NCBI GenBank assembly: GCA_023231475.1
Contig: JALJEE010001723.1
Location: 1 to 31,044, forward strand
Reading direction: 5' to 3'
DNA: 31,044 nt
From: Seison nebaliae
Lineage: Eukaryota > Rotifera > Pararotatoria > Seisonacea > Seisonidae
Part shown: positions 6,901 through 11,685 of the stretch, one piece after another
Layout: each line of letters starts with the position of its first letter
How positions within the stretch are numbered: position 1 is the first letter of the stretch
Made by a program: the position numbers and the translations under genes
Notes under the pieces: model-generated
Seen by the model: only the letters and a program-made list of their open reading frames with translations
What the model was told of the DNA's origin: nothing
Database searches by the model: none

Positions 6901-7699
6901 CTCAATTCAAATACGAGGCCATAGTAAGAATATTTAAATTTGGAAATAAAAGGGAAATATATTGAACGTTTTGCTTCACATATACGGGAGGAATGATTGG
7001 CCTAATTCTTCAGCTATTTAGAAACGGTTGGAGTAATTTGGATAACCGTTCATTTCTTACCCGCGTCATCCGTACATGCGTTCTTCAATTTCTTCTTTTT
7101 TATATTGCGCTTCATGAATGAATGGAGGGGGGATAGACATCTATGTATATATTCCATATACATATAAATAATTCTATATGTTTCTCATCGACACTCTTCT
7201 ATGTACGTATAATATAATTATGTACACATACACGATCTAACTACTAGTTGAGATGGAGGAACTCTCACATATAATTAAACAAAATGAATTTTCGTTTCTA
7301 TATATACATTAAACAAATGTGTGTGTGTGTTTATGTGTGTGTGTATGTGTGTATGTGTGTGTGTATGTGTGTGTGTGTGTGTGTACGTGTGTGAGTGGAA
7401 GTGGATGTGTATTTTAACAATACAACTAATGTAAATGATGATTAAGTTCATTCTCTTTACAATTGTTAATGATATTGATGTATGATGTAGATTAGACGAT
7501 GTTGTTGGTGGTGTAGATGGACGATGTCCCGAAGATTTCTTTCTTTCCATTTCTCTTCTTCACACTTCGATTTCATTTCAATCTTGTTCTTCTTTCTCAT
7601 TTCATGTGTCATGTATGGAAGAGAATTTTAATTCAAGTGAATAATCAATGATTTATTTCTGTTCTACAGATACGAATTGTTCATAATCGATTGTAAAAG
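3905..7699. other. 3.8 kb non-coding interval between divergent genes
   Basis: I find no frame with coding character on either strand and no tRNA- or rRNA-like fold. It separates the minus-strand Q-rich gene from plus-strand Grb2/Drk, so it must hold both promoters and 5' UTRs. A 3' splice site (ttctgttctacag, ending at 7670) lies 29 bp before the Grb2 start codon and suggests a spliced 5' UTR. The (tg)n microsatellite below lies inside. Confidence 0.5.
7317..7387. repeat. (tg)n microsatellite with ta interruptions
   Basis: About 70 bp of tgtg repeats are broken by tatg and tacg units. Read on the minus strand it gives a spurious His-Thr repeat frame (7275-7550), which I do not count as a gene. 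Confidence 0.9.
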
Positions 7700-8636
<937 letters not shown>

Positions 8637-9536: not shown

Positions 9537-11685
9537 ATGAAAGTGATTATATCAATCTTATTCCTCAATCATATCCTCTTAATATCTACTTCAAAATTAA
9601 AATCAGGTAGTTAGTTGTCTTTTGACATAGTTATATGATTCTATTTTTCTACCATTTTCAGGAGCAGATATCGATCTGTTAAAACGTCTCTTAGGAGATG
9701 ATGCGTCTCAACAATTATTGGAGCAAGTCGCTTATGGAGTTAATTCAAATCCAATACCCATTTCATCATCGTTTTTATCTTCATCATCAATATATGAAAG
9801 ACCAAACAATAAATCATCAGAAGAATTAACAATAAAAAAATCGAAATTTATACAAACTAATAATAATAATAATAATAATAGTTCGAGAGGAGAGAATCGA
9901 ATGATAAAAAGAAGAGGAGAAAATAAGACAATTCGAAGTAATTATTTATCGCTGACAAGTGACTTTCAAATTCGAGCAATCGAAGTATATTCGATTGATA
10001 GTAAAGTGAAAGTTAAGTCATGTGTCCACGATGAACCATGTCAACATGGTGGAATTTGTATTAGACATCGAAATAAAAGAGAATGTCTCTGCACTTCAGT
10101 TTATTTCCATTTCTTCATATCAATTTATGAGAAGTTCATTTCTAGCAATATACTGGTCCTGTTTGTGAGTTAAAAGCAGGTGGTTGTGAATCGCATCCAT
10201 GTGTTCCTGGATCAACATGTGAAGATGTTCAACAATCACCTGGATTCATTTGTCATTGTGCACCAGTTTTATTATTTGTTTCATCTGTGAAATAAATGAT
10301 AAATATATTTTAGGGTATTGGCGGTCCCCATTGTGAGAAATATGATCGATCAGATCCATGTAATTCACGACCATGTTGGAATGAAGGTAGTTGTGCACAA
10401 GAGTCTCTCAGAGACTCATTCAAATATCGGTTAGTTAGTTATCATACTAAATTTTATCTCTCTCTAATATTTAATAATTTTAATTAGATGTATTTGTCGA
10501 AATGGATTTACTGGAAAAAACTGTAAAGTTCCTATAGACCCTAATAATGTGTGTCAACGTCAACAATGTCATCCAGATGCTTATTGTAAAGTACTCTCCC
10601 TTGATCGTTTCTTCATTTGTTTCATGATCATATAAATAAAAATTATAAAATAGGTCGAAGATGTGATTGTCCTAGAAATCGAAGAGGTGAGAATTGTACC
10701 GAACCATTTAATCCATGTAAAATCATTGATAATGTATGTCTGAATGATGGCGTTTGTGTATCACGAGATCGTACTGCCACCTTCGAATGTTATTGCAGTG
10801 CCAATTTTATCGGAGCCAGGTTTTATTTAATGAAAATGAAAATTTTAAATTTATTTTCCATTTTTCAGATGTGAACAACCAAATTCGGAGAGTTGTATCA
10901 TTAAAGGTTGTAGTGGTGGCCGAGGAGATTGCCAGCAAGTTAACGGTAAATTTTTTTGTGTTTGTATTCCAGGATTTGAAGGTGAATTTTGTGAGAGAAG
11001 TAGTTCAAGTTTGTGTTAAAATTTTTAATAATTTTCAATTTCTAATATTTTTCTATAAGAATGTTTCCCATCTGATGGAATTATTCCAATCATTTCCTTC
11101 GATAAACATCAAAACAAAATCATTAATAAAAAAATGATTAATGAAACAAAAATTGGAGATGTAACATTAACAATAGAGAAGAATGAATTAATAGAAACAA
11201 CAATTTTAGCATTTCTTCATAAAGACAATAATGGAGAAGGTGATTATCTCCGAATAGAAACTGATAATTATCATCATTTCTATATATCTCCACTTCATCT
11301 TATTCCAAAATATGAGAATGAAATGAACAAATTCGTTTTTGCGAAACATCTCCAATTGAACGATATCATTACGATGAATGATGGAAATCGGATTTATCAG
11401 AAAACAATTAACAAAATCGATTTAGTGAGAAGGAACGGTAAATTTGCAATTCTCACAGATCACTCGACACATTTAATAGATAACGTTCTCGTTTCATCAT
11501 TTGCACATATTCAATCTCATCAATTCGCTGCAAATCTATTCAAACCAATTAATTATTTGTTACAATTCTCATCTACAAAATTCTCAGTTATCGTTTATGA
11601 TAAATATACATCATTCCTCCAAATCATTTGGTCTCTCCTCAAATCAATTCACTTTCAATATCTCCATCAATTCGTCCAGTTGTAA
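9537..11685 (+). CDS. Secreted six-EGF protein with a C-terminal Hedgehog-type Hint (Hog) domain
   Basis: Eight exons (9537-9606, 9662-10098, 10146-10265, 10314-10429, 10488-10585, 10654-10819, 10869-11008, 11060-11685) join in phase into 590 aa. All introns are GT-AG and 47-68 bp. Residues 1-20 are a signal peptide (MKVIISILFLNHILL). A low-complexity stretch with basic clusters follows. Then come six EGF-like modules, each with six Cys, from CVHDEPCQHGGIC to CIPGFEGEFC. The Hint domain starts at Cys384 (CFPSDG). It continues through LRIETD, ISPLHL (Ser459, His462), FAKHLQLND and ILTDHSTHLID to VLVSSFAHIQSHQFA. A hydrophobic C-terminal tail is placed like the sterol-recognition region of Hedgehog. 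In Hedgehog the Hint domain self-cleaves before the Cys and attaches cholesterol to the N-terminal part. Here the cargo would be EGF modules. The final intron has two possible in-phase donors (11009 or 11000). Both leave Lys before the Cys. Confidence 0.88.

Follow-up and report, generated by a model that had tools for sequence, protein, structure and literature searches.

Is the self-processing Hint domain of Hedgehog tied to the Hedgehog signal domain in animals, or can it stand behind a different extracellular cargo? The question is raised by contig C827 of the tiny marine seisonid rotifer Seison nebaliae (the window, that is, the whole stretch of 31,044 bases analyzed, from a 36-Mb draft assembly), where positions 9537–11685 hold one eight-exon gene with seven GT-AG introns. 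The encoded protein leads from a hydrophobic N-terminus/signal peptide through a low-complexity spacer and six EGF modules into a C-terminal Hedgehog-type Hint domain. The initial annotation had described a single frame from signal peptide to Hint once the seven introns are removed, and this holds: the frame runs from the ATG at 9537 to a stop codon ending at 11685 (590 aa in the first model). The NCBI entry for the protein (Seison nebaliae SNEBB_001692, P0001, 597 aa) is labelled 'hypothetical protein', and the eight exons, joined with the intron 5 donor at 10607, reproduce it letter for letter. The 590-aa reading differs from P0001 only in that donor (10586 instead of 10607). The end of exon 5 at 10606 in the deposited model is preferred over 10585 because its GTTT-type donor and 47-nt intron are closer to the other introns; in the deposited model the introns measure 47–58 nt. 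The six EGF modules of P0001, with six Cys each, span residues 144–176, 183–216, 225–260, 270–302, 309–344, and 352–384. The first Cys of the Hint domain had been numbered 384, which is correct for the 590-aa reading and becomes residue 391 (nt 11062) in the preferred deposited model. The features of the gene are as follows, with residues numbered as in P0001 and active-site positions as in Drosophila Hedgehog.

9537..9606, + strand: exon 1, ATG and a hydrophobic stretch judged to be the signal peptide (by eye)
9662..10098, + strand: exon 2, low-complexity spacer (about aa 25–143) and most of EGF 1
10146..10265, + strand: exon 3, end of EGF 1 and most of EGF 2
10314..10429, + strand: exon 4, end of EGF 2 and most of EGF 3
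10488..10606, + strand: exon 5, end of EGF 3 and start of EGF 4 (the 590-aa reading stops at 10585)
10654..10819, + strand: exon 6, end of EGF 4 and most of EGF 5
10869..11008, + strand: exon 7, end of EGF 5, EGF 6, and linker
11009..11059, + strand: intron 7, 51 nt with an in-frame TAA; splicing it out links EGF to Hint
11060..11685, + strand: exon 8, Hint domain, C-terminal helical tail, and stop codon (Pfam Hint 2e-22, pLDDT 86)
11062..11064, + strand: predicted nucleophile Cys391 (C258 in Drosophila Hedgehog), with predicted cleavage between Lys and Cys, before the Cys
11218..11220, + strand: His443 at the position of the general base Asp303 (by alignment)
11287..11298, + strand: SPLH (Ser466, His469), counterpart of the TxxH motif (by alignment)
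11497..11499, + strand: Ser536 at the position of Cys400 (by alignment)

Pfam recognizes both halves of the protein. Hint and EGF scored E-values of 2e-22 and 9e-10 on the 590-aa model and of 2.1e-22 and 1.4e-12 on P0001, the latter two above the curated cut-offs, so that the domain search proposed in the initial annotation is significant for both. No NCBIfam family matched P0001.

The window gene has company in its own genome. Pfam Hint gives 15 matches in the Seison assembly that group into 12 loci, and half of these (6/12) are EGF-Hint genes: the window gene, four genes on contig C767, and one on C215. Six loci on three contigs rule out a one-off chance fusion or an assembly error. The Seison gene models come from a simple splice search, and their N-termini are uncertain; the starts of C767_14843 and of the C215 gene are unsure, with no clear signal peptide, and three automatic models (C767_24582, C767_20815, and C510_10621) overran into upstream sequence. 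For the comparison of Cys spacing, the deposited protein P0022 replaced the automatic model of C767_24582, and C767_20815 was trimmed by hand. The Hint of C510_10621 was excised at its Cys, and the deposited P0003 gave the same start. EGF modules per protein were counted by a pattern match, which may miss some.

The other six Seison Hint loci encode a short Cys-rich cargo (about eight Cys) and lie on contigs C510 (two genes), C186, C164, C168, and C58. The cargo of five of these six genes (all but C186) has no Pfam family above cut-off; the sole match among the five is a weak one to GT_PLOD in C168 (6.1e-4, under cut-off). These genes possibly form a second unnamed Hog class. In a further deposited model, P0002 (SNEBB_005546), a glutaredoxin domain precedes a Hint gene, apparently because neighboring genes were fused in the annotation.

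Relatives with the same layout are also found in bdelloid rotifers. The earliest homologue search, with the window Hint as query, recovered only the query itself, and an earlier profile search returned 21 proteins (three from Seison), among which only the window's own protein had EGF domains. A further profile search scored the 8000 candidates sharing most words, without reaching Monogononta and Acanthocephala, and returned 31 proteins. Six of them carry both EGF and Hint by precomputed domains: two from Seison and four from bdelloids, namely P0028 (643 aa) and P0044 (632 aa) of Adineta ricciae, P0039 of Rotaria sp. Silwood2 (633 aa), and P0037 of Rotaria sp. Silwood1 (1304 aa). In P0037 a neurotransmitter-transporter domain precedes EGF-Hint, probably as an annotation fusion. 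When Pfam was rerun on P0028, P0039, and P0044, EGF and Hint were both present. The remaining 25 proteins (111–425 aa; one from Rotaria) have Hint alone in the precomputed list, and in one of these, P0025, an EGF stretch precedes the Hint (Pfam EGF 0.00037, just under cut-off). In viral contigs a search gave 50 pattern matches and in bacterial/archaeal contigs 3, with no relative among them. Tandem EGF modules, a C-terminal Hint, and His at position 303 (see below) occur together in the six Seison loci and the four bdelloid proteins. The same architecture, which the initial annotation proposed to look for in related species, does recur there, and, judged by sequence, the window gene is a member of a multi-gene rotifer EGF-Hint family, not a single gene.

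In the window gene, the EGF-Hint join depends on splicing out the intron at 11009–11059, and the locus could also be read as two adjacent genes, one for the EGF part that stops at the TAA after 11008 and another for the Hint. That TAA is in frame if intron 7 is retained, and the join in this gene is predicted from gene models. The join is supported by the deposited model, which unites EGF and Hint, by a paralogue on C767, and by the four bdelloid proteins that unite the two domains. The C767 paralogue (Hint at 7549–8067, minus strand) holds EGF modules and Hint within one stop-free frame of 269 aa and no intron (Pfam Hint 3.3e-25; EGF_TEN 6.5e-6, below the curated cut-off). P0025, from a contig of 2244 bases, with its EGF stretch upstream of Hint, points the same way. 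We regard two genes as very improbable here, and the single-frame paralogue, the deposited model, and the bdelloid proteins led us to rule them out.

The Hint domain itself is of the Hedgehog type. Against sequences of solved structures, the Hint region has three matches at E up to 0.001, all of them Hedgehog (best 7.8e-8). An AlphaFold model of the Hint exon (mean pLDDT 86) is closest to 6tyy (rmsd 2.1) and 1at0 (rmsd 2.4), both Hedgehog Hint domains, with a TM of 0.89 over the target; after these two chains, the structure matches listed are inteins and intein-like domains. Helices follow the Hint in the model, the second tail helix with low confidence (block means 47–59). Two helices after the Hint have been proposed for the sterol region of Hedgehog in the part of the literature consulted (PMC9163320).

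The active site was compared in an alignment of 18 Hint domains, ten EGF-Hint rows among them. The nucleophile Cys (C258) and the TxxH His (H329) are present in all ten rows. At the T326 position, nine rows have Ser and a single row has Thr; altering the Thr or the His of TxxH in Hedgehog is described as compromising the acyl shift (excerpts of PMC4695875), and the Ser in place of Thr keeps the hydroxyl. These results from Pfam, alignment, and fold uphold the earlier view of a Hedgehog-type Hint with a cleavage Cys and a TxxH-type His behind EGF cargo. The position of Asp303 is His in 10/10 EGF-Hint rows and in 11/12 Seison Hint domains, and Asp in P0048 and P0049, two rows outside the Seison and bdelloid groups. 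Asp303 of Drosophila Hedgehog activates the sterol, and its D303H variant retains structure and activity with wider sterol acceptance, as stated in the portions used of PMC9163320. The C400 position is Cys in 7/10 EGF-Hint rows and is changed in the window gene (Ser), C767_20815 (Ser), and C767_7549 (Asn). Directly before the Hint Cys, the ten proteins have K, E, E, S, N, S, E, E, E, and E, never Gly (0/10); the Lys belongs to the window protein, before Cys391. In the C-terminal tails inspected by eye, no counterpart was seen of the HWY-motif His, which is listed among the cholesterol contacts in models of Hedgehog (PMC9163320, in part).

Did the fusion of EGF modules to Hint arise once? In their last three EGF modules, C767_24582 and 4/4 bdelloid proteins share a Cys spacing (4/5 or 6/4, 4/5/10, 4/5/9) that is identical between them but for one residue, which suggests common descent of the fusion. 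The same five proteins have Glu before the Hint Cys. In a tree of Hint domains, the bdelloid rows group at 99/97, whereas the six Seison EGF-Hint rows do so only at 75/62, and the Cys-cargo Hint of C186 joins the bdelloid EGF-Hint rows (86/84). The tree does not show a single EGF-Hint clade, and with C186 among the bdelloid rows there may have been more than one gain or loss of the fusion. The tree is poorly resolved (10 of its 34 inner branches are starred and 12 are open) and is unsure because long branches meet in it. BLAST of EGF against EGF was also run and is weak evidence of kinship, since EGF modules resemble one another. From sequence, a single origin of the EGF-Hint fusion appears likely, with the Cys spacing in its favor and the weak tree against it.

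Several known systems resemble this layout in part. Hedgehog shares the signal peptide, the extracellular cargo, and the C-terminal Hint with its Cys, TxxH-type motif, and helical tail; it differs in carrying the Hedgehog signal domain instead of EGF modules, in Asp rather than His at 303, and in Gly before the Cys, where EGF-Hint proteins never have Gly. Like other Hog-domain proteins, the window protein joins an N-terminal cargo, judged by eye to be secreted from its N-terminus, to a Hog domain. Burglin 2008 lists Hedge, Wart, Ground, Quahog, and further domains at the N-terminus of Hog proteins, and C. elegans has Hog paralogues in an animal without Hedgehog (PMC2362128, in part). The nematode warthog, groundhog, and quahog proteins are thus alike in placing Hog behind another N-terminal cargo, with several paralogues, although, compared by description only, that cargo is a Wart, Ground, or Qua domain and not EGF. 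The Lophohog proteins of molluscs and Capitella are likewise lophotrochozoan Hog proteins with a non-Hedgehog N-terminal domain, which is called unique and was set against EGF-Hint by description only (extracts of PMC9695228 and PMC5103448). In the sections of PMC2362128 drawn on here, EGF comes up only for a protein with a Hedgehog signal domain and without Hog; there, Nematostella Nv 200640 (Hedge, VWA, cadherin, EGF) is extracellular and combines a Hedgehog part with EGF repeats in the reverse arrangement, the signal domain being present and Hog absent. Delta/Serrate and other EGF-repeat proteins have tandem EGF modules and some glycosylation motifs in common with the family, whereas the EGF-Hint loci have no DSL match and a C-terminal Hint instead. 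The word 'hedgehog' is absent from the main text of the Seison genome paper (PMC8351084) and of the syndermatan paper (PMC12256650), and no description of an EGF-Hint protein was found in the open-access literature searched. Within that literature, the statement that no named class has this layout stands. The initial annotation is supported in part: its Hedgehog-type Hint, its EGF cargo, and its unnamed class stand, that the adduct is cholesterol is less sure, and its Notch- or EGFR-type signal is a conjecture. That similar proteins recur in other rotifers suggests that the Hedgehog processing domain has been turned to a different cargo.

What remains of the Hedgehog pathway in Seison? The Hedgehog signal domain (PF01085) is not among the Pfam matches of the window protein, and HH_signal had no match in the genome even with E-values up to 10 allowed, in a search run without a positive control. 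Patched-family and sterol-sensing models hit the same three loci, which by Pfam and solved structures are NPC1 (C356), HMG-CoA reductase (C535), and SCAP-like (C146); C356 matches NPC1 best, at 2e-268, and Patched-1 at 1.4e-41. Neither Patched nor Dispatched is among these three loci, in an exon-by-exon search, which can miss genes, of a draft assembly whose completeness is not stated. Two Frizzled-family genes are present, both nearer Frizzled than Smoothened chains, and the same kind of search found neither Smoothened nor SUFU. Because these searches turned up none of the five components (Hedgehog, Patched, Dispatched, Smoothened, and SUFU), the EGF product is probably outside the Hedgehog pathway, and it is unlikely to act through it. 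The transcriptome of the chaetognath Spadella cephaloptera (another gnathiferan or near relative) is reported to contain no shh orthologue (PMC12852818), which may fit a wider Hedgehog loss.

We propose that these rotifer proteins are self-processing precursors in which a Hog domain carries EGF cargo, and that the EGF product is probably freed with an adduct, most likely a sterol. After removal of the signal peptide, Cys391 would form a thioester with the preceding residue. The thioester would be resolved by a nucleophile held in the C-terminal helical tail and activated by His443, which replaces Asp303. The EGF product would then depart from the Hint carrying at its C-terminus an adduct that is most likely a sterol, and would either stay attached to membranes or be released from them, serving in adhesion or signaling. 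Self-cleavage of the window protein is likely and a sterol adduct plausible; that the adduct would be cholesterol in particular is less sure, because Asp303 is His, Gly never precedes the Cys, and the HWY His was not seen. More tentatively, rotifers may have retained the Hint after loss of the Hedgehog pathway and re-used it for sterol-tagged EGF-repeat proteins, with a native His as general base and with a sterol that is perhaps not cholesterol.

The Hint might instead cleave without attaching a sterol, water or another small nucleophile resolving the thioester and a soluble EGF product being released. The absence of Gly before the Cys, the lack of a visible HWY His, and the low confidence of the second tail helix would agree with this, as would the nematode Hog tail, which is named an 'adduct recognition region' and for which cholesterol addition is unclear (PMC2362128, in the part used). 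Conversely, His at 303 can act as a sterol-activating general base and the two helices after the Hint match the proposed sterol region (PMC9163320, in part), and the genes for NPC1, a SCAP-like protein, and HMG-CoA reductase suggest that Seison handles sterols; cleavage without a sterol is rather unlikely. A decaying Hint that no longer cleaves, leaving the window protein to act uncut as an EGF-repeat protein, is considerably less probable. Of the six Seison EGF-Hint rows, the window gene sits on the longest end branch (2.64); its Cys400 position is Ser, and it reads ILT at a site that is PLT in the nine other EGF-Hint rows. Yet its domain frame is open throughout, the nucleophile and both active-site His are retained, the Hint fold is confident, and C400 is also altered in the two C767 paralogues named above.

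Another reading makes the cargo a lipid-anchored ligand of the Notch pathway. Notch LNR repeats are present on contig C390 of the Seison genome, and motifs matching the O-glucose and O-fucose consensus each occur in 2/6 EGF modules of the window protein. However, such motifs are widespread among functionally diverse EGF proteins, and none of the five DSL matches in the Seison genome falls on C827, C767, or C215. DSL matches being absent from the EGF-Hint contigs, a DSL ligand identity was ruled out; a Notch link for the cargo is conceivable but lacks support, and the lipid-anchored Notch ligand is improbable. We favor the self-processing precursor, with a product that would be a membrane-tethered or released EGF-repeat adhesion or signaling protein.

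A Hedgehog engine behind EGF modules in an animal family would show the natural portability of that engine, and the EGF cargo would offer a second cargo for testing what the lipid does. His at 303 in 10/10 EGF-Hint proteins is a natural version of the laboratory D303H, which makes the active-site predictions directly testable. Should Seison really have lost the Hedgehog pathway, its Hint has survived the partner and receptor with which it usually works. Sterol-tagged EGF-repeat proteins, if true, would be the second class of sterylated secreted proteins in nature.

Other Hint partners appeared among the proteins recovered. P0048 (425 aa, from a contig of 3372 bases) joins a strong Hint (2.3e-52) to a possible secreted AID/APOBEC-like deaminase domain, with deaminase-type Pfam matches to NAD1 (7.9e-6) and SNAD4 (1.4e-5), both under their cut-offs. 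In the precomputed list, P0016 and P0020 have Hint at the C-terminus of MACPF-domain proteins, and P0016 also has GTPase domains.
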